Assembly (NCBI RefSeq): GCF_000969905.1
Contig: NZ_CP009520.1
Span: 1,736,001 to 1,800,000 of the forward strand
DNA length: 64,000 nt
Source of the DNA: Methanosarcina vacuolata Z-761
GTDB taxonomy: Archaea; Halobacteriota; Methanosarcinia; Methanosarcinales; Methanosarcinaceae
Direction of reading: 5' to 3'
Position 1 is the first letter of the stretch, and every line of letters begins with the position of its first letter. Under the pieces are notes generated by a model. The model was not told the origin of the DNA. It did not search any database and saw only the letters and a list, made by a program, of their open reading frames with translations. Made by a program: the position numbers and the translations under genes. Shown piece by piece: positions 25,568 to 57,369 of this stretch.

Positions 25568-25639
25568 AATCAGGAGTGGGAATCGAACTCACATAATTCC
25601 GGGTTGCAGCCGGAAGCATCACCACTCTGCCATCCTGAC
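25568..25639 (-). tRNA. tRNA-Cys (GCA), divergent copy
   Basis: The 72-nt cloverleaf: acceptor GTCAGGA / TCCTGAT (one G1-U72 wobble), D arm GCA/TGC, anticodon stem TCCGG/CCGGA with loop CTGCAAC (anticodon GCA, A37), 5-nt variable loop, T stem GTGAG/CCCAC with loop TTCGATT (an A-C mismatch in the stem), and discriminator U73, the main cysteine identity base. CCA is not encoded. It is clearly different in sequence from the three tRNA-Cys genes at 45-50 kb. The weak first pair and T-stem mismatch leave some doubt about efficiency, but promoter and operators upstream suggest it is used. Confidence 0.85.
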
Positions 25640-25681: not shown

Positions 25682-25732
25682 TTCACAATTGTGATTGTTT
25701 GTTCACAATCGTGAACCTACTATAAATAACTA
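25682..25732 (-). promoter_or_regulatory. tRNA-Cys promoter with two operator palindromes
   Basis: On the minus strand: a TATA-like TTATTTATAG (25723-25732), palindrome TTCACGATTGTGAA (25702-25715; plus strand TTCACAATCGTGAA), then ATCACAATTGTGAA (25682-25695). The distal palindrome starts about 27 bases after the TATA box, the same place as in the other tRNA-Cys promoters. Both lie across the expected start site, so binding there should repress. Confidence 0.7.
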
Positions 25733-28307: not shown

Positions 28308-29492
28308 TCAAATAGTCCTGTACTCTTTAGGGGTCAGAGGAGACATATTTCTCAGTTTCTGTACGATATCAGGCACAGCCTCAAGTACCCTGTCCACATC
28401 TTTTTCGGAATTCATCCTTCCGAGGCTAAGTCTGAGTGAACCGTGAACGATTTCATGCGGGACTCCGCAAGCTGTAAGCACGTGAGAAGGCTCGAGAGAA
28501 GAAGAATTACATGCGCTTCCGGTAGATGCGAAAATTCCTTTTGCGTTCAGTAGCAGCAGAAGCGATTCGCCCTCTATGTATTCAAATGTGACATTTACAT
28601 TATTTGCAAGCCTCTGTGTAGGATGCCCATTGAGATGGGTTTTCGGGATTTTCAAAAGTCCTTTTATGAGGCGCTCTCTCAGCTCCAATAGAGTTTTATT
28701 GGATTCCTCAATTTCGGCTGTTGCAAGCTCTATAGCTTTTCCAAGCCCCACAATGGAAGGGACATTCTCGGTTCCGGCCCTGCGCTTTCTTTCTTGAGCC
28801 CCACCGTGCAGAAGGATATCTATTTTTGTCCCTTTTCGAATGTAAAGAGCTCCACAGCCCTTTGGGCCTTCAAACTTATGTCCTGAAAGTGAGAGAAGGT
28901 CGATATTCATTTTTTTAACATCGATAGGAACATGGCCTATTGCCTGTACAGCGTCCGTATGGAAATAGATCCGGTTCTCTTTCGCAATTTTTCCGATTTC
29001 CTCTACAGGCTGGATTGTACCTATTTCGTTGTTTGCAAGCATTATGGAAATAAGGATAGTATCGTCTCGAATTGCCTTTTTCAACTCCTCAGGGGATACC
29101 ATTCCATATTTGTCAACAGGCAAGTATGTTACCTCAAAGCCCTGTCCTTCTAGCCAGGCACAGGTATGCAGAACTGCGTGGTGTTCGATAGAAGAAGTGA
29201 TTATGTGTTTTCCTTTATTCCGGTTTGCAAAGGCTATACCCTTAATTGCCCAGTTATCGGATTCCGTGCCTCCGGATGTGAAATATATCTCGTTTTCTTC
29301 GGCCCCGAGAGCATTGGCAACCTTTGTTCTTGCTTTGTCTATTGCATGTTTTGAGATTTTTCCGATCTCATAGATAGAAGAAGGGTTTCCAAAATTCTCG
29401 GTCAGGTAGGGAAGCATCTCTTCGACAACTTCTCTCCTTACAGGAGTTGTAGCAGAGTTGTCCATGTAAATGGTCTTGTTTTCAATGGTCAC
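28308..29492 (-). CDS. nifS: Cysteine desulfurase NifS/IscS
   Basis: NifS converts cysteine to alanine and leaves a persulfide for Fe-S assembly and thiolation. The enzyme has YMDNSATTPVRREV at the N-terminus, the PLP lysine in LSLSGHKFEGPKGCG and the sulfur-carrying Cys in STGSACNSSSLEPSHVL, a short loop with group I character. The longest frame starts at ATG 29522, but its first codons are the operator palindrome itself; GTG 29492 with AAGGTG 5 nt upstream is the more likely start, giving VTIENKTIYMDNSATT. Operon order is nifS, nifU, E1-like gene. The operator just upstream predicts regulation with cysteine supply. Confidence 0.92.
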   Translation of the reverse strand: MTIENKTIYMDNSATTPVRREVVEEMLPYLTENFGNPSSIYEIGKISKHAIDKARTKVANALGAEENEIYFTSGGTESDNWAIKGIAFANRNKGKHIITSSIEHHAVLHTCAWLEGQGFEVTYLPVDKYGMVSPEELKKAIRDDTILISIMLANNEIGTIQPVEEIGKIAKENRIYFHTDAVQAIGHVPIDVKKMNIDLLSLSGHKFEGPKGCGALYIRKGTKIDILLHGGAQERKRRAGTENVPSIVGLGKAIELATAEIEESNKTLLELRERLIKGLLKIPKTHLNGHPTQRLANNVNVTFEYIEGESLLLLLNAKGIFASTGSACNSSSLEPSHVLTACGVPHEIVHGSLRLSLGRMNSEKDVDRVLEAVPDIVQKLRNMSPLTPKEYRTI

Positions 29493-29501
29493 ACTCACAC
29501 C

Positions 29502-29515
29502 TTCACAATTGTGAA
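29502..29515. promoter_or_regulatory. Operator palindrome at nifS
   Basis: Exact TTCACAATTGTGAA, ending 9 bases before the proposed GTG start of nifS. A TATA-like CTTAAATAG (29531-29540 region, minus strand) lies about 15 bases on the other side, so the site covers the transcription start. Confidence 0.75.
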
Positions 29516-29730
29516 TATCCATAGCATCAAGACTATTTAAGTTTTATCGTAGAATTCTGCGGGAAAACTTAGAGATATGCAGGAGAAAACCCCAATAATT
29601 TACATAGAGTTAGGAAAATTGTTAAAAATCAAGCAGGTTCCTCAAAATTTTTCTTTCTCCTGTTGCCCATGCGGTACTCATTACTATTTTTCTGAATGAC
29701 CATAATTTATATGCATATACGATATATTCA

Positions 29731-29744
29731 TTTTCAATTGTAAA
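29731..29744. promoter_or_regulatory. Degenerate operator-like site at the regulator gene
   Basis: TTTTCAATTGTAAA keeps the CAATTG core and matches the operator in 11 of 14 positions, 13 bases before the regulator ATG. It could mediate weak autoregulation, or be chance in AT-rich DNA. Confidence 0.35.
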
Positions 29745-29757
29745 ATCTCAAAAAGTG

Positions 29758-30147
29758 ATGATAACTGTGGAAACTCCATGTCAGAAAATTGTGTGGGATC
29801 TGGTTCCCGCAATAAGGGCCAGTCTTGCAATCGAACTTGTAAAAAAAGGACAGTCACAGGCAGCGTCTGCAAAGTTGCTGGGGATTGCCCCGTCGGCAGT
29901 TTCCCAGTACATTTCGGGAAAAAGAGGCTACAGGATTGAGTTCCAGGGCGAGACGAAAGAATTGATTGAAAAACTTGCGCAGGATTTGATCGATAACAAC
30001 GTCTCTGACTTTGTAATAAGGGTTTGTGATATCTGTGTAAGTGCCAGAGGAATTGAAAATAAGTGCAGTAGTGGTTGCGGTTCGGAAAAACAAGCTGGTG
30101 ATAATAAGGAAGATGAAGCGAAAAATCAAGAAAAAGCTGAAACATAA
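29758..30147 (+). CDS. HTH transcriptional regulator with Cys-rich C-terminal motif
   Basis: The 129-residue protein has an XRE/lambda-repressor-like helix-turn-helix (about 31-56, GQSQAASAKLLGIAPSAVSQ) and a second part with four cysteines, C90-x2-C93-x9-C103-x3-C107, plus C8 near the N-terminus, followed by a Lys/Glu-rich tail. The cysteines could hold an Fe-S cluster or zinc, or react with sulfur species. It is divergent from nifS and just upstream of cysK, both of which carry the shared operator, making it the best local candidate for the operator-binding protein. That link is inference. GTG 29755 precedes ATG 29758; no ribosome binding site is visible. Confidence 0.8.
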   Translation: MITVETPCQKIVWDLVPAIRASLAIELVKKGQSQAASAKLLGIAPSAVSQYISGKRGYRIEFQGETKELIEKLAQDLIDNNVSDFVIRVCDICVSARGIENKCSSGCGSEKQAGDNKEDEAKNQEKAET

Positions 30148-30224: not shown

Positions 30225-30339
30225 TCAATAACGAAATTTCTCGAGATTCAATAACGAAATTTCTCGAGATTCAATAACGAAATTTCTCGAGATTCGATAA
30301 CGAAATTTCTCGAGATTCGATAACGAAATTTCTCGATAA
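30225..30339. repeat. 23-bp tandem repeat, five units, upstream of cysK
   Basis: Five head-to-tail 23-bp units built on CAATAACGAAATTTCTCGAG (last two with CGATAACG). Each unit includes the palindromic GAAATTTC and CTCGAG. The array ends just before the TATA-like CTATATTTAA and the cysK operator. Confidence 0.95.
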
Positions 30340-30360: not shown

Positions 30361-30374
30361 TTCACAATTGTGAA
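30361..30374. promoter_or_regulatory. Operator palindrome at the cysK promoter
   Basis: Exact TTCACAATTGTGAA about 12 bases downstream of the TATA-like ACTATATTTAAC. A leader of about 225 bases separates it from the cysK ATG. Confidence 0.75.
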
Positions 30375-30600: not shown

Positions 30601-31527
30601 ATGGGACGAATATATTCCGATATAACCTGGACAATTGGTAATACGCCTCTTGTCAGGTTAAACCGCATAACAGAAGGTTTGCATGCGGATGTGTTAGCTA
30701 AAGTCGAGTCCTTTAATCCTATGGGAAGTGTGAAGGACAGAATAGGGTTGTCAATGGTTGAAGAAGCCGAACTTGCAGGTAAAATCAAAAAGGGTACCAC
30801 TATTGTTGAAGCAACCAGCGGCAATACCGGCATAGGACTTGCATGCGTCTGTGCTGCCCGTGGCTATAATCTCATACTGGTTATGCCTGAAACAATGACA
30901 GTAGAAAGAAGAAAACTGCTGACAGCCCTGGGAGCAGAGCTGGTTCTAACCCCCGGAATGGAAGGAATGAAAGGAGCAGTCAATAAAGCCGAGCAGATGG
31001 CTGCCGACGACCCTGAACTTTACTTTATAGCTCAGCAATTTCAGAACCCTGCAAACCCTGAAATCCACCAGCTGACAACAGCTCAGGAGATCTGGAGAGA
31101 TACGGACGGCAAAGCAGATGCTATTGTAGCAGGCGTTGGAACAGGCGGAACTATCACAGGCATTGCCAGCATAATTAAAAAACGGAAATCTGCTTTTAAG
31201 GCAATTGCAGTCGAGCCTGCCGAATCTCCCGTGCTCAGCGGCGGAAGCCCTGGACCACATAAAATCCAGGGTATAGGTGCAGGTTTTGTTCCTGATGTAC
31301 TTCAGCTTGACCTTGTTGATGAAGTAATCAAAGTAACCGGAGACAACGCCGCTGCAACATCCCGGCGCCTGGCAAAGGAAGAAGGCATCCTTGCAGGCAT
31401 ATCCTCAGGCGCTGCTACCTATGCTGCACTTCAGGTGGCGGCCAGGGAAGAAATGAGCGGGAAAACCATTATTGTAATTTTACCGGATACGGGAGAGCGT
31501 TATCTGAGCACCGACCTCTTTGACTGA
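30601..31527 (+). CDS. cysK: Cysteine synthase (O-acetylserine sulfhydrylase)
   Basis: CysK replaces the acetyl group of O-acetylserine with sulfide to make cysteine. The 308-residue fold-type II PLP protein has [12 protein letters not shown], the PLP lysine K45 in [24 protein letters not shown] at the substrate loop and [12 protein letters not shown] at the PLP phosphate. GGAGA lies 10 nt before the ATG. It is followed by cysE and a DUF59 gene on the same strand. With SepCysS encoded in the same window, this organism has both a free-cysteine route and a tRNA-dependent route. Confidence 0.95.
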
Positions 31528-34484: not shown

Positions 34485-35411
34485 TTACTCATTTCTTACC
34501 CTTTCCACGCCTGTGTAAATATTCATCTTCTGGCTCCTAACAAAGCCGATAACAGTAAGGCCGGCTTTCTCTGCCATGCTTATGGCAAGCGTAGTGGTTG
34601 CACCTCTGGATGCGATAATAGGAATATTAGCCATAAGGCATTTTCTTACCATCTCAGAAGAAATCCTTCCTGAGCAGGTCACAATTGTCCTGGAGAAGTC
34701 CACACCATGTTTCAGTCCGTAACCTATTGCCCTGTCAAGGGCATTGTGCCTGCCGATATCTTCTATTATGCAAATCTTTCCTTCCGGCCCGAAGAGCCCT
34801 ATAATATGTATGCCGCCTGTTCTGGTATGCAGATCTGATACCAGCGTTTCTTTCATTATAGTTTTAATTGTTGAGACATTAGTGACCATATCCGACTGGA
34901 TTTTCGGGAGCCGATCCGCGTCCAAATATGAAGTATCGCCTCCACATCCCGAAAGGACAGTTTTGCCTGAAAGCATGATTGAAAAAGGGTCTTTTGTCAG
35001 TACACTGGCACTGAGAGTGATGGGATCATCTGTTTTTTCTTTATTCTCTCTGTTTTTCTCTCTGTTTTTCTCTCTGTTTTTCTCTCTGTTTTTTTCTCTG
35101 TTTTCATCTCTGTTTTTTTCTCTGTTTTCATCTCTGTTTTTCTCCCTGTTTTCATCTCTGTTTTTCTCTCTGTTTCTTTCTCTATTTTCTTCTATGTGCA
35201 ACGATTCTATATCCTCGAGTTTGCGAATAATTCTTTCTGTATATAATAGTCCTGTTACAAACTCTTCAAGCAATGTCGGGCTTACCATAGCGGTTAAAGC
35301 ATGGCGGCCGTTGACAAAGACTGCAAGAGGCACTTCAATTACGACTTCGTGAGACGATGGGACCATTGATCCGGGATCATATTTTATACAGGAGACCGTA
35401 CTGTACATCAT
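34485..35411 (-). CDS. fdhD: FdhD-type sulfur transfer protein with a repeat insertion
   Basis: FdhD carries sulfur from a cysteine desulfurase to the Mo/W-bisMGD cofactor; in a methanogen the client could be formylmethanofuran dehydrogenase or formate dehydrogenase. Family marks are HEVVIEVPLAVFVNGR, LLEEFVTGLLYTERII, the redox-Cys region LSGCGGDTS, HTRTGGIHI, EDIGRHNALDRAIGYGL and SEMVRKCLMANIPIIASRGA. Only one Cys remains where bacterial FdhD has CxxC. Residues about 75-126 are a low-complexity ENREKNRD repeat not found in normal FdhD. Start at 35411 has AAGGAG upstream. It follows sufS by 13 bases, the expected persulfide donor. Confidence 0.9.
   Translation of the reverse strand: MMYSTVSCIKYDPGSMVPSSHEVVIEVPLAVFVNGRHALTAMVSPTLLEEFVTGLLYTERIIRKLEDIESLHIEENRERNREKNRDENREKNRDENREKNRDENREKNREKNREKNREKNRENKEKTDDPITLSASVLTKDPFSIMLSGKTVLSGCGGDTSYLDADRLPKIQSDMVTNVSTIKTIMKETLVSDLHTRTGGIHIIGLFGPEGKICIIEDIGRHNALDRAIGYGLKHGVDFSRTIVTCSGRISSEMVRKCLMANIPIIASRGATTTLAISMAEKAGLTVIGFVRSQKMNIYTGVERVRNE
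35034..35189 (-). repeat. 12/24-bp in-frame repeat inside fdhD
   Basis: A purine-rich minisatellite with basic unit GAGAAAAACAGA (minus strand) repeats about 12 times in frame, encoding alternating REKN and RDEN. The length is a multiple of 3, so the reading frame survives. It sits at a surface loop position between the first strand-helix part and the Cys motif. Confidence 0.9.
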
Positions 35412-35424
35412 TATACCATACTCC

Positions 35425-36606
35425 TTACACGATACGTGCGATTTCTTCAATTGTTTCAAGAAGCAGGTCAACCTCCTCCTGAGTATTGTACATGTAAAAG
35501 CTTGCTCTCACAGTGCCGTTTTGGAGCCCCAGAGACTTCATTAACGGGATACAGCAGTGATCTCCCGAACGGACAAGAATTGCGGCTCTTTCGTCAAGCA
35601 AATAAGCTATTTCGTGGGGGTGAATTCTATCTATAGTAAAAGAGACAATCCCGATCCTGTTTTTCATATCCTGCGGCCCATATATAGTAATATTTTCAAT
35701 ATCGGGAAGCCCTTTGAGCAGGCGTTCAGTCAGTTCCTGTTCATGCCTGAAGATAGCATCCATCCCCAGGTTTTCAAGATATTTTACCGCCTGTCCAAGC
35801 CCTATTGCACCTGAGATGTTCGGGGTGCCTCCCTCGAATCGCTGATAACCGCCAGTCAGAGAATAAAACTCAGTAGTTACGTCCTCGACTGTGCCTCCAC
35901 CAAGTATGAGAGGAGAAATAAGCGAGTCTCTCATCCACAGAACGCCAGTGCCCGTTGGCCCGAGCATCTTGTGGCCCGAAAAGCATAAAAAATCGCATCC
36001 AATACGCCGGGCATCTACAGGAAAATGAGGGACGGACTGTGCCCCATCAACCAGAAAATAGGCTCCCTGCGTTTTGCAGATGTCAGCAATCTCCCGCATA
36101 GGCTGTACGGTACCAAGTACGTTTGAGGCATGGCTAACTGCAACAAGTTTTGTATTAGCTGTAATCGCTTCTTCAAATTCCTCTATATCAAAAATCCCGG
36201 CTTCGTCTGGTCGGATAACAACCAGTTCAACGCCTTTCTGACGCAGTCGAAGCCAGGGGAGCAGGTTGGAGTGATGCTCAAAAATCGTTGTGACTATTCG
36301 GTCTCCTGACTGCCAGTCAAGGCCTGCTGCAACCATATTGATAGCCTCGGTTGTATTCTTGGTAAAGACTGTAGTGCCTTCTTTCCCACCAATGAAATTG
36401 CTGACCAGATCATGTGCGTCCTGATACTTTTGGGTTGCAACCCTTGTAAGCCTGTGCATTCCTCTTCCAACATTGGCGCGGTATTGCCGGTCATATTCGT
36501 TCATCGCAGCTATTACAGGCTCGGGAACAAGGCTCGTTGCCGCATTATCCATATAATGAAGGTATCTGGAGATTTGGAAGTCAGCTATGCAGTCTTTGAG
36601 CTTCAT
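35425..36606 (-). CDS. sufS: SufS-type cysteine desulfurase
   Basis: A class V PLP aminotransferase-fold enzyme that takes sulfur from cysteine. The 393-residue protein has YMDNAATSLVPEPV, NVGRGMHRLTRVAT, VTTIFEHHSNLLPW, the PLP lysine in FSGHKMLGPTGTGVLW and the catalytic Cys in VRSGDHCCIPLM, group II (SufS/CsdA) features. It sits between larE (4-base overlap) and fdhD (13-base gap), so a larE-sufS-fdhD operon dedicated to cofactor sulfuration is likely. No sufBCD is seen nearby. Confidence 0.9.
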   Translation of the reverse strand: MKLKDCIADFQISRYLHYMDNAATSLVPEPVIAAMNEYDRQYRANVGRGMHRLTRVATQKYQDAHDLVSNFIGGKEGTTVFTKNTTEAINMVAAGLDWQSGDRIVTTIFEHHSNLLPWLRLRQKGVELVVIRPDEAGIFDIEEFEEAITANTKLVAVSHASNVLGTVQPMREIADICKTQGAYFLVDGAQSVPHFPVDARRIGCDFLCFSGHKMLGPTGTGVLWMRDSLISPLILGGGTVEDVTTEFYSLTGGYQRFEGGTPNISGAIGLGQAVKYLENLGMDAIFRHEQELTERLLKGLPDIENITIYGPQDMKNRIGIVSFTIDRIHPHEIAYLLDERAAILVRSGDHCCIPLMKSLGLQNGTVRASFYMYNTQEEVDLLLETIEEIARIV

Positions 36607-37467: not shown

Positions 37468-37481
37468 TTCACAATTGTGAA
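37468..37481. promoter_or_regulatory. Operator palindrome between larE and the MoaD-like gene
   Basis: Exact TTCACAATTGTGAA in the divergent intergenic region, 68 bases upstream of larE and 114 bases upstream of the MoaD-like gene. One site could control both directions. Confidence 0.75.
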
Positions 37482-44157: not shown

Positions 44158-44171
44158 TACACAATTGTGAA
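44158..44171. promoter_or_regulatory. Operator palindrome at the ABC ATPase start
   Basis: TACACAATTGTGAA, one mismatch to the operator, lies between the TATA-like box and the ATG, directly abutting the start codon. Binding would block both initiation complex and transcript start of the whole operon. Confidence 0.7.
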
Positions 44172-45485: not shown

Positions 45486-45558
45486 TTAACAATTGTGAAT
45501 ATAATCGTAAGCTAAATTGATTAACAATTGTGAACTGTGCAATATTAACAATTGTGAA
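45486..45558. promoter_or_regulatory. Triple operator upstream of the radical SAM gene
   Basis: Three copies of TTAACAATTGTGAA (one mismatch to the operator) at 45486-45499, 45521-45534 and 45545-45558. The first two are the ends of a 32-bp perfect direct repeat (45468-45499, 45503-45534) that begins AATCGTAAGC. They are 95-167 bases upstream of the radical SAM ATG. Confidence 0.75.
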
Positions 45559-45806: not shown

Positions 45807-45881
45807 AGGCATATTTTGCCTCAAAGAGCAGGTTTAAATATTAGGAATAAGTATGATGATTTGCTCATTCACAATTGTGAA
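45807..45881 (+). promoter_or_regulatory. tRNA-Cys promoter module
   Basis: In order: dyad AGGCATATTTTGCCT (45807-45821), TATA box TTTAAATATT (45833-45842), operator TTCACAATTGTGAA (45868-45881), then the tRNA 7 bases on. The same layout recurs at 49363-49436 and 48250-48324. The dyad is in an activator position and the palindrome in a repressor position. Confidence 0.8.
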
Positions 45882-45888
45882 TGCCGGT

Positions 45889-45959
45889 GCCAGGGTGGCG
45901 GAAAGGCTACGCAATGGACTGCAGATCCATTTATCCCGGTTCGATTCCAGGCTCTGGCT
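45889..45959 (+). tRNA. tRNA-Cys (GCA), G37 type
   Basis: 71 nt: acceptor GCCAGGG / CTCTGGC (one G-U), D arm GCG/CGC, anticodon stem ATGGA/TCCAT, loop CTGCAGA (GCA, G37), T stem CCCGG/CCAGG with loop TTCGATT and one C-A mismatch, discriminator U73. CCA is not encoded. The gene and its promoter are near-identical to 49363-49514, a clear duplication. G37 allows m1G37, which is known to matter for recognition by SepRS. Confidence 0.95.
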
Positions 45960-49362: not shown

Positions 49363-49436
49363 GGTATTTTTTGCCTCAAAAAGCAGGTTTAAATATTAAA
49401 AACGAGTATGATGTGTTGCTAATTCACAATTGTGAA
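49363..49436 (+). promoter_or_regulatory. tRNA-Cys promoter module
   Basis: Dyad AGGTATTTTTTGCCT (49363-49377, one arm mismatch), TATA box TTTAAATATT (49388-49397), operator TTCACAATTGTGAA (49423-49436), tRNA start 49444. Nearly the same sequence as 45807-45881. Confidence 0.8.
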
Positions 49437-49443
49437 TAGTGGT

Positions 49444-49514
49444 GCCAGAGTGGCGGAAAGGCTACGCAGTGGACTGCAGATCCATTTATCCCGGTTCGAT
49501 TCCAGGCTCTGGCT
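49444..49514 (+). tRNA. tRNA-Cys (GCA), G37 type
   Basis: 71 nt with a perfect acceptor GCCAGAG/CTCTGGC, anticodon stem GTGGA/TCCAT (one G-U), loop CTGCAGA, T stem CCCGG/CCAGG with the same C-A mismatch as the copy at 45889, discriminator U73. It differs from that copy at only two positions, so the pair is a recent duplication that included the promoter. Confidence 0.95.
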
Positions 49515-49566: not shown

Positions 49567-49639
49567 AGGCGCATTTAGCCTGAAGGAGGAACAAATAAAG
49601 GTTATAATGAATTGCAAACACCGACTTCACAATTGTGAA
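49567..49639 (+). promoter_or_regulatory. Promoter module of the tRNA-Cys/pscS/metY operon
   Basis: Dyad AGGCGCATTTAGCCT (49567-49581), weak TATA-like CAAATAAAG (49592-49600), operator TTCACAATTGTGAA (49626-49639, extended to a 16-bp palindrome by flanking C and G). Spacing from dyad to operator (44 bases) is close to the 45-46 of the other modules. It is the only obvious promoter before the tRNA-Cys at 49918. Confidence 0.65.
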
Positions 49640-54462: not shown

Positions 54463-55812
54463 TCAAAGAGGCCCTGCGTATGTACTCATAACGTCTTCCA
54501 CTAAAGTGAGCCCTCCACTGAACCCTGCGTAATTGTGTTCAAGTATCACGCGGTTATATGAAGGGAATGAAACCGTCAAATGTAGGGCATTAAACTCCGG
54601 ACCGGATATAGGAGTTTCAAGAGAACTTGCCAGCAGGAACAGGAAATTTCTGTCTTTTAAATTTTCCCGAATCCTGTATGCATCCACTTCATATATTATT
54701 TCAGGCCAGGCAGGGGTTTCAAGGTCGGTTGTCAATTCCTCGTTTATCAGTTTACGGGCTTCTTCAGGTGGATTATCTGTTATCTGAACAATATCAGGTA
54801 GATAACCCATCTCGTTTGCAAGGTATTTTGTAATGCTTACAGCCGAATTACTGTCAGCGACAACCGCAAAATAAGGATGCGGCCTGGTGATCAGGAGTAT
54901 ATCGCCAACAAATTCTGCAAATCTGTAGGCTCGCTTTTCCTCTCTGGCAATCAGGTCTTCAATGACATCGGCTGAAACATCTAACCTTTCTCCTATGACC
55001 CTCAGGAATTCCGAGGTTTGTTTTGGTCCTATTGGTACCCCTGGGAAGGAGATATAAGGAGTATCGAACTTTTCTTCGAGTTTCTCTGCCGTTTTATGCC
55101 CTATCCAGCTTGAGAGGACAATATTATATTCAGCAGCCGGAATTTTTTTCAGGTTCTCAAGTGCTTCAAATTCTCCTACAATCAGATTTGCCTTCAAGCC
55201 TATTTTTTCAAGCAGGGTTTTTATCTCCCTTGCTTCGCCCTTCCAGAATATGTGCTGTGAAGGCACTATACCGAAAACGTTTACCAATCCTTTTTCTTTC
55301 GGAGCCTTTTCAAGGAGCTGGTCGATCACAGCGTCGAAAAAGTACTCGTAGCCGTCGTATGATGTCCCTGCAAAGCCTGAAGTATTTACATGTATGATTG
55401 GAACCTCAGGATTCTTTTCTTTATATCTTCTGATAACGGCTCCCACATCATCTCCTATAAGTGAAGGGACACAGCCAGAGATGACTGCAAATACTTCTCC
55501 ATTTACAAGTTCTACCGTTGATTCAATAAGCGCTTCAAGTTTTTTCTCGCCGCCGAAAATTACATGTTCCTCAACTAAAGAGGAACACGGGGTGCTTGTT
55601 CCACCGTAAGGGCCTCCAGCGTTCTGGCCACCACCGTAAAATTGACCAAAAAGCTGCCCTATTCCACATCCTGCCCCGGAATGGAGTATGGGAACAACTC
55701 CAAATATCCCTACTGCAGTTGAATAAGCTCCTGCAAGTGCGCAGGAGTAACGTGGTGCTTCAATAGCACCTGATATAACATTATTTGTCTCTAAAGGTTC
55801 ACTTATTCCCAT
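54463..55812 (-). CDS. Nitrogenase-like component 1, beta-type subunit
   Basis: The 449-residue protein belongs to the nitrogenase component 1 superfamily. Cys24, Cys49 (SGAGCGIGQ) and Cys114 (VISGCVPSLIGDDV) match the three P-cluster ligands of NifK. A long Gly-rich loop (QFYGGGQNAGGPYGGTSTP) follows Cys49 and is unlike NifK. It starts 12 bases after the alpha-type gene, so they are one operon. Similarity to NifK is distant; candidates are a methylthio-alkane reductase MarK-like subunit or an uncharacterised nitrogenase-like reductase. The reductase (NifH-like) is not in the window. Confidence 0.75.
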   Translation of the reverse strand: MGISEPLETNNVISGAIEAPRYSCALAGAYSTAVGIFGVVPILHSGAGCGIGQLFGQFYGGGQNAGGPYGGTSTPCSSLVEEHVIFGGEKKLEALIESTVELVNGEVFAVISGCVPSLIGDDVGAVIRRYKEKNPEVPIIHVNTSGFAGTSYDGYEYFFDAVIDQLLEKAPKEKGLVNVFGIVPSQHIFWKGEAREIKTLLEKIGLKANLIVGEFEALENLKKIPAAEYNIVLSSWIGHKTAEKLEEKFDTPYISFPGVPIGPKQTSEFLRVIGERLDVSADVIEDLIAREEKRAYRFAEFVGDILLITRPHPYFAVVADSNSAVSITKYLANEMGYLPDIVQITDNPPEEARKLINEELTTDLETPAWPEIIYEVDAYRIRENLKDRNFLFLLASSLETPISGPEFNALHLTVSFPSYNRVILEHNYAGFSGGLTLVEDVMSTYAGPL

Positions 55813-55824
55813 AATTACACCTAT

Positions 55825-57369
55825 TTACTCCTCTGCTTTAAGATAATACAGTGAATTTGGCTGTTTGTACCACCAGTCTTTATATGTACTCAGCGTCTTT
55901 TCCTTCATAGTCCGCTGATATGAATGGCTTTTTAGTGACTGCAAAAGGAAGTTTCCAAATGCAATCGCTCCCGTATAGCCGCTCTGGGTACTCCAGGGAT
56001 GTGCATCGGACCTCAAGGCATGCACCCTTGTTACACCCTTGTCGCGCTTGAATGCCCCTCCCTGGAACGGGCAGGTCATTGCGATATCGGGATTTCTATG
56101 GTTTGTTATATGTGTCTGTTCTGCGGCCTGGAAGGTATTTACCAGAATGTCAAAGTCCCCCATCTGGGCGAGCAATTTTTCAAGGTCCTTAAGGATGAGG
56201 TTGTCAAAGTCCTGGCACATTGCAGCTGAGGATTTAAGTCCAATTTCATCAAAGTACGGGACCTGAGCCAGAAGTCTTCCCTGCCCAAGTGCACCCAGCA
56301 CTTCTACTTTCTCTCCATTACCTTTGAAATTTTCAAATTCCTGCCTGATCGCCTTGAGTTTTGGAAGCCATTTTTCGTGTTCTTCTTTGATCAGGGCTTC
56401 TATTTCCCTTTCTTTTCCAGTGTGCCTCCCGATTTCCCTCAGCCACTCATCGGTGTGAGCAACTCCCATTGGTGAGGGATAGAGGAAATAAGGAACTCCA
56501 TATTCTTGCTTAAGTCCACGTGCAAGATAATCAGTGTAAGTCGGGCACAGGGGTGCAGTAACTGCAGCTTCGGAAAGTTGTTCAAACTGCTCCACAGAGG
56601 CGAATTCAGGGATGAAGTTAACTCTAAGACCGACTTTTCCCAGCAGGCGCTTTATTTCCAGTCTGTCCTGCCAGGTGTAGGAGAGCATACTGGCTACATT
56701 TATCAGATCTTTCTGTTTCTTTTCCGGTTTTTTGACGAGGTATTTTAAGACTGCATGCCAGAAGGCATCATAACCTGTCTGGACAAGTTTTGATCGTGAG
56801 CCTTCACAGTGAATAGGGACTATTGTTGCTTTTATTTCGGGCTGGACCTGTGAGACAACCCCTTCTATGTCCTCTCCGATTATTCCTGAAGTACAGGACG
56901 TAAGTATAAAGATCGCTTTAGGATTGTACCGTCTCTCGGCTTCCTTTATCGCTTCCCTGAGCTTTTCACCGGCACCGTAGACCACATCTCTTTCGCCGAG
57001 ATTTGTTGTCATCCAGTGGAGGTCGTAATTTGCAGGACGGCCAAGTTCAACAGGCACGTGTCTGTAGAGTTCACGGTAGCCGAGTGCTGCAGACGAGCAG
57101 CCGACAGGTGCATGATATATAGCTACAGCGTCACGGATTGTTCCGATCCTTACTGAAAGATAGAAGTTCAGAACACAACCACTTGACTGCTGAAAATTCC
57201 GTTCTCTTTGCCTCAGGCAGCCTGAACGGGCTTCTTTTGCAAGATCGCTTGCTTTTCCATACCAGACGTTAATACCGTTTGCCCTCTGTTCCCTGTTGGG
57301 ACATGTAGCCCGTGATAGGTCGATTCTATCCTCGATAAGTTCATTTTCAGTAAGTTCTGTTCCTGACAT
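55825..57369 (-). CDS. Nitrogenase-like component 1, alpha-type subunit
   Basis: The 514-residue protein keeps the NifD layout: P-cluster ligands Cys65 (SSGCVLN), Cys91 (APVGCSSA) and Cys159 (LTSCTSGIIGED), a cofactor Cys275 in APLCPTYTDYLARGLKQEYG, and His457 in AHPWSTQSGYTGAIAF where NifD has the cofactor His. Thus a FeMo-co-like or NifB-co-like cluster could be held. NifD residues around the N2 site (for example the RAP/HSW context) differ, so N2 reduction is not implied. Sulfur genes nearby (two MetY, methanethiol-forming lyase) make a methylthio-alkane reductase-like role attractive but unproven. Confidence 0.8.
   Translation of the reverse strand: MSGTELTENELIEDRIDLSRATCPNREQRANGINVWYGKASDLAKEARSGCLRQRERNFQQSSGCVLNFYLSVRIGTIRDAVAIYHAPVGCSSAALGYRELYRHVPVELGRPANYDLHWMTTNLGERDVVYGAGEKLREAIKEAERRYNPKAIFILTSCTSGIIGEDIEGVVSQVQPEIKATIVPIHCEGSRSKLVQTGYDAFWHAVLKYLVKKPEKKQKDLINVASMLSYTWQDRLEIKRLLGKVGLRVNFIPEFASVEQFEQLSEAAVTAPLCPTYTDYLARGLKQEYGVPYFLYPSPMGVAHTDEWLREIGRHTGKEREIEALIKEEHEKWLPKLKAIRQEFENFKGNGEKVEVLGALGQGRLLAQVPYFDEIGLKSSAAMCQDFDNLILKDLEKLLAQMGDFDILVNTFQAAEQTHITNHRNPDIAMTCPFQGGAFKRDKGVTRVHALRSDAHPWSTQSGYTGAIAFGNFLLQSLKSHSYQRTMKEKTLSTYKDWWYKQPNSLYYLKAEE

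Follow-up and report, generated by a model that had tools for sequence, protein, structure and literature searches.

A candidate Cro-type repressor with conserved cysteines and a palindromic operator at a sulfur and Fe-S assembly locus of Methanosarcina vacuolata

Introduction

Fe-S proteins are very abundant in methanogens, and little is known of how these organisms match sulfur assimilation, cysteine synthesis and the assembly of Fe-S clusters to supply. The locus described here raises this question in a concrete form, with a small gene for a helix-turn-helix (HTH) protein lying between a cysteine desulfurase gene (nifS) and a cysteine synthase gene (cysK), each preceded by the same palindrome. 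According to the original prediction the protein would be an operator-binding sulfur sensor. Do protein and palindrome belong together, which genes would they control, and which residues might carry the signal? The window analysed comprises 64,000 bp of M. vacuolata Z-761 (C2:1736001-1800000, in a genome of 4.56 Mb). The reading that we favour, with a probability of roughly 80%, is that of a homodimeric Cro-type HTH repressor which acts on a sulfur regulon through the palindrome and whose cysteines may serve in sensing. It would offer a concrete candidate regulator with an exactly defined operator, and a regulon that can be tested in genetically tractable species.

The regulator gene and its DNA-binding domain

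The regulator gene (from a GTG at 29755 or an ATG at 29758 to 30147, plus strand) was delimited by the open reading frame listing, the HTH profile and the orthologues, and encodes 130 or 129 aa, respectively; residues are numbered from the GTG. Its surroundings are as originally described, with nifS/iscS, encoding a cysteine desulfurase, in divergent orientation (28308-29522 as listed, minus strand) and, downstream, a listed open reading frame (30601-31527, plus strand) which we take, by recognition of its sequence, to encode a cysK-like cysteine synthase. The predicted HTH is also found in the protein, at residues 34-58 (29854-29928, plus strand) according to Pfam ranges, the family alignment and predicted helices (residues 35-42 and 46-54), and the stretch A-P-S-A-V-S-Q-Y-I-S-G-K-R-G-Y is almost invariant across the HTH of the aligned family. 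The score of the window protein against HTH_3 (PF01381) is 18.8 bits, under the gathering cut-off of 23 bits, and 25 of 28 aligned orthologues match this Pfam profile at E ≤ 0.01 (best E 3.8e-6); the Cro/XRE-type HTH appears to be real, though weak by profile.

The AlphaFold model has a mean pLDDT of 74.8, with residues 101-130 disordered (pLDDT <50). Foldseek found no significant match to this model (best E 0.6) and VIA-align only generic HTH domains at Z ≤5.0 (DeoR, SIRV1 ORF 55, IstA, TrpR), and we propose no structural relative beyond the generic HTH. Searches of solved structures with phmmer and profiles gave weak matches only (best PDB profile E 0.025), and a search of NCBIfam returned nothing meaningful.

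The operator and the genes that it precedes

The operator is a palindrome of 14 letters, TTCACAATTGTGAA, with TTMACAATTGTKAA as its wider form in the family. Genome-wide pattern searches yielded eight perfect sites, against none for the reversed pattern; seven of them lie within 37 kb (between C2:1765502 and 1801898), the eighth beside a paralogue of the regulator gene. At one mismatch or less the genome holds 16 sites, 14 of which fall within ~40 kb around the regulator and one beside the paralogue, leaving only the site at 3929725 elsewhere. In the window, 19 sites with up to three mismatches were counted where 6.7 were expected, a number that no shuffle reached. A chance or low-complexity origin of the palindrome is ruled out by the reversed-pattern controls.

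Perfect copies of TTCACAATTGTGAA precede both nifS and cysK, which agrees with the earlier description of an operator at each gene. The first (29502-29515), which belongs to the minus-strand promoter of nifS-iscU-hesA-(nadA), overlaps the over-long nifS reading frame, whose true start is probably a downstream GTG. The second (30361-30374), in the promoter of cysK-cysE, is found just downstream of the TATA-like TATATTTAA. About five tandem copies of a ~24-bp unit (AATAACGAAATTTCTCGAGATTC; 30226-30335) immediately precede the cysK promoter. Downstream of the paralogue, whose DNA is 86% identical (C2:1315900-1316289), lie another perfect operator and a further cysK-cysE pair, and the entire regulator-cysK-cysE block was therefore duplicated (L147:7898-10819).

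On the minus strand, a further perfect operator (37468-37481) lies in the promoter of LarE/ExsB-like, cysteine-desulfurase-like and fdhD genes, a one-mismatch operator (44158-44171) at the start of a series of ABC, CobW-type NTPase, FeS and HcyBio (homocysteine biosynthesis) genes, and three one-mismatch operators (at 45486, 45521 and 45545; 45486-45558) upstream of a radical SAM gene. An FdhD-like open reading frame (34485-35471) contains an internal run of ENREKNR/DENREKNR repeats. Two tRNA-Cys genes (45889-45959 and 49444-49514) have a perfect operator 7 bp 5' of them (45868-45881 and 49423-49436, respectively), and another perfect site (49626-49639), ~20 bp downstream of the TATA-like GTTATAATG, stands ~290 bp 5' of a tRNA-Cys(49918)-SepCysS-OAHS unit. 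Upstream of a tRNA-Cys gene that is followed by OAHS and MetX (25568-25639, minus strand), two one-mismatch operators (25682 and 25702; 25682-25715) are spaced 20 bp apart. Tandem operators at this distance of ~20 bp, or two helical turns, are common at tRNA-Cys promoters (L054 and L069 being other examples), suggesting cooperative binding. Within two mismatches, an operator was found at 45 of 60 tRNA-Cys genes versus none of 10 other tRNAs, a fraction biased upward by the choice of loci around the regulator, while the whole-genome counts are unbiased.

This neighbourhood recurs across two orders, with nifS-iscU-hesA divergent from the regulator gene, LarE-fdhD downstream of it, and SepCysS, OAHS, MetX, CysK-CysE and NadA likewise nearby. 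Genome G037, from another family of the same order, encodes a distantly related protein (39% identity to the regulator) directly after nifS-iscU (L158:11440-13335). Just past the window, a pair of operators (L146:2857 and 2886; C2:1801856/1801885) precedes a small open reading frame. A NifD/NifK-like pair is encoded at 54463-57369 (minus strand), with a NifH-like gene nearby (L146:1423-2337); its NifD-like protein matches the solved chains 9fmg and 9d9u, both named 'Nitrogenase', at E ~1e-77 and other nitrogenases at ~1e-31 and weaker. We believe 9fmg and 9d9u to be methylthio-alkane reductase, a sulfur-scavenging enzyme.

Conserved cysteines and the nature of the signal

The tail of the regulator reads C91-x2-C94-x9-C104-x3-C108 and thus carries the C-x2-C-x9-C-x3-C arrangement from which a sensing function was first proposed, and an additional cysteine, Cys9, left out of that proposal, is located near the N-terminus. 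Of 87 sequences, 85 have Cys9 (29779-29781, plus strand), within a conserved P-C-[QE], and 85 have the CxxC of Cys91 and Cys94 (30025-30036, plus strand); for each, a start-calling artefact accounts for one of the two sequences counted as lacking it. Cys104 (30064-30066, plus strand) is found in 84, with its counterpart in relatives usually 8-10 residues past Cys94. Cys108 (30076-30078, plus strand) is not conserved, a second cysteine past the CxxC being present in only 61 of the 87. All four clustered cysteines are thus in place in the window protein, but the last one is often absent in relatives, and the likely ligands are therefore Cys9, Cys91, Cys94 and Cys104 rather than the four cysteines of the tail.

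Judged from this conservation, an Fe-S cluster or a persulfide switch on these residues is plausible, and a structural zinc possible. In the alternative that deserves most weight the protein would still repress the regulon, with its cysteines holding a structural zinc or stabilising the dimer and the signal coming from elsewhere, be it cysteine, O-acetylserine or a partner such as CysK or IscU. It would be in keeping with the adjacent cysK, which has its own operator and was duplicated along with the regulator, and a CxxC with two more cysteines suits zinc as well. The conserved set, however, consists of a distant cysteine, a CxxC and one more, unlike a typical two-knuckle zinc site, and the regulon spans Fe-S assembly and Fe-S enzymes besides cysteine synthesis, which fits an Fe-S signal. 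We therefore consider this alternative rather unlikely, and sensing through the cysteines remains our preferred reading.

Promoter geometry and mode of action

Operators were oriented to the gene that they precede, and TATA-like boxes were scored on both sides of them. For tRNA-Cys operators, such a box lies 10-36 bp 5' in 30 of 49 cases and on the 3' side in one, the centres being mostly 26-33 bp away; for nifS operators the corresponding numbers are 26 of 55 and two, with centres mostly 22-24 bp away. At the promoters of tRNA-Cys, nifS, cysK, SepCysS and the radical SAM gene the operator follows the TATA centre at a distance of ~19-33 bp, and the spacing between operator and mature tRNA end is often 6-12 bp. 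Since transcription in archaea starts ~25 bp past the TATA centre, the operator covers the expected transcription start. This is the geometry of a repressor, and repression is likely from the layout of these promoters. In Methanomicrobiales, the operator in front of the regulator gene may coincide with the start site or may directly precede a second TATA-like stretch, and the latter placement would suit an activator, or a protein that both activates and represses. As this is at odds with the downstream position of the operator at the five kinds of promoter named above, we regard such a mode of action as improbable and prefer a plain repressor.

Pairing of regulator and operator across genomes

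The regulator gene seems to be among its own targets. As first noted, its promoter in the window contains a degenerate site with three mismatches, TTTTCAATTGTAAA, 10 bp 5' of the gene (29731-29744). Many other Methanosarcina have a related degenerate site 8-10 bp 5' of the start (26-27 bp in a few species), and in one genome (L059) the site is perfect. In Methanomicrobiales (Methanoregula and relatives) an exact TTCACAATTGTGAA is found ~44 bp upstream of the regulator, and in deeper lineages (L156, L261, L263, L269, L275) the corresponding place is taken by TTAACAATTGTTAA, an operator variant with one base changed per half-site. A match to TTMACAATTGTKAA with at most one mismatch lies within 250 bp upstream of 66 of 116 distinct regulator genes, against one for the reversed pattern; about a quarter of the orthologues (24 of 102) have no upstream site at up to two mismatches.

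The original prediction had proposed co-occurrence of orthologue and palindrome as a check, and among 392 genomes of the phylum an orthologue (E ≤ 1e-40) is indeed present in 52 of the 54 that have the exact palindrome. Fisher's test gives p ~4e-26 for this association, with phylogeny ignored and, as its input, a hand count of ~131 genomes whose orthologue reaches E ~1e-35 or lower. The association is also seen among close relatives: four genomes of genus g61 with the orthologue have 2, 1, 5 and 3 sites and four without it have none, in genus g67 one genome (G256) has the orthologue and two sites and another (G129) has neither, and all seven orthologue-lacking genomes from the family of the source, outside its genus, have no site.

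The two palindrome genomes without an orthologue have one site each. That of G242 is a chance site in the 3'-terminal part of an open reading frame, whereas that of G368, a draft of 400 contigs, is of the regulon type and precedes a desulfurase-fdhD unit. In a further relative (G009), six sites are present and the regulator was not found, because contig C97 of this assembly (75% complete) begins 63 bp before iscU, so that nifS and the regulator fall off the assembly. With a chance site, a fragmented draft and a truncated contig behind them, these genomes were rejected as a refutation of the pairing.

Because co-occurrence, autoregulatory sites and the recurrent neighbourhood agree, we judge regulator and operator to be linked, and their pairing, together with a sulfur regulon, is very likely on these comparative grounds; with a regulon of sulfur, Fe-S and tRNA-Cys genes in agreement as well, the claim of an operator-binding regulator has gained strong comparative-genomic support. 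Although the link rests on comparative genomics, it is highly improbable that a different protein binds the palindrome and the HTH protein is a mere neighbour, as the palindrome tracks the regulator over the 392 genomes, the only exact site of several genomes (G207, G293, G317, G359, G374, G387) lies in the regulator's own promoter, 46-48 bp before the match of its HMM, and the more distant paralogues checked, which are sited elsewhere, have no such site upstream.

A proposed model of sulfur-dependent repression

Computation supports the HTH fold, the autoregulatory operator, the co-occurrence, the content of the regulon and the location of the operator over the expected start. From there we infer that, under an ample supply of sulfur, cysteine or Fe-S clusters, a dimer of the regulator would bind TTCACAATTGTGAA, or its wider family form TTMACAATTGTKAA, and that, placed over the start site, it would block RNA polymerase. 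Repression would extend to cysK-cysE, SepCysS, tRNA-Cys, nifS-iscU, NadA, PdxS, sulfur-transfer and homocysteine genes, and usually to the regulator itself. Cys9, Cys91, Cys94 and Cys104 would act as the sensor, most likely by coordinating an Fe-S cluster or, alternatively, through persulfide or disulfide chemistry. Upon sulfur or Fe-S limitation the cluster would be lost and the promoters released, those of tRNA-Cys included. Control of tRNA-Cys would make sense because the SepRS/SepCysS route builds cysteine on tRNA-Cys as a carrier. The broader proposition, a phylum-wide archaeal repressor that is switched by an Fe-S cluster or persulfide and controls one tRNA species (tRNA-Cys) plus the cysteine-building enzymes, is more tentative, with odds somewhat short of even; if true, the availability of the cysteine carrier would be tied to sulfur and Fe-S status.

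Comparison with known regulators

The main ISC paper on M. acetivorans reports that iscSU2 clusters with genes for methionine and NAD biosynthesis, and the passages searched name no regulator of iscSU2 or of the genes for sulfur assimilation, cysteine synthesis and Fe-S assembly (PMC7585200). A survey of SepRS/SepCysS reports that some SepCysS genes have tRNA-Cys and sulfur genes in their vicinity, and words starting with 'regulat' or 'promoter' are absent from its main text (PMC5424206). A literature search covering the motif, COG2522 and sulfur or Fe-S regulators of methanogens found no description; subscription papers lay outside its scope, and an unseen report is possible.

The regulator resembles IscR, the Rrf2-family Fe-S-sensing repressor of the bacterial isc genes, as a small HTH protein with conserved cysteines encoded next to iscS-iscU, and, like IscR, appears to act as a repressor of its own gene as well as of those for Fe-S assembly. 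It differs in its Cro/XRE-like HTH and in a regulon that adds cysteine biosynthesis and tRNA-Cys genes; the Pfam hits listed for 28 family members include no Rrf2 domain, and the spacing C9 ... C91-x2-C94-x9-C104 does not match the C-x5-C-x5-C cluster motif of IscR. By these features the likeness is one of location and targets, and the protein is not a member of the IscR family. Control of cysteine synthesis genes and a cysK adjacent to the regulator recall CymR, the Rrf2-type repressor of cysteine metabolism in Firmicutes with CysK as co-repressor, but here the regulon includes Fe-S assembly and tRNA-Cys as well. SurR, the sulfur-response regulator of Pyrococcus, is likewise archaeal and has a redox-active CxxC, a motif that is conserved in our family; it has an ArsR-type winged helix and a different DNA motif and regulon, whereas a Cro/XRE-type HTH is combined here with a perfect 14-bp palindrome. 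Membership in the SurR (ArsR) type is ruled out, as HTH_5 matches only 3 of the 28 members, weakly, compared with 25 for HTH_3, and so is identity with ThiR, the protein having 130 aa and no ThiN domain (Pfam).

With repressors of the Cro/CI type (XRE, HTH_3) the regulator appears to share the HTH class by profile, to which it adds the N-terminal Cys9 and the CxxC...C tail, and it has no close relative among solved structures. We place it in a new family within a general kind of regulator that is already known; its regulon is unusual in containing tRNA genes, which suggests a dedicated repressor of the tRNA genes for one amino acid.
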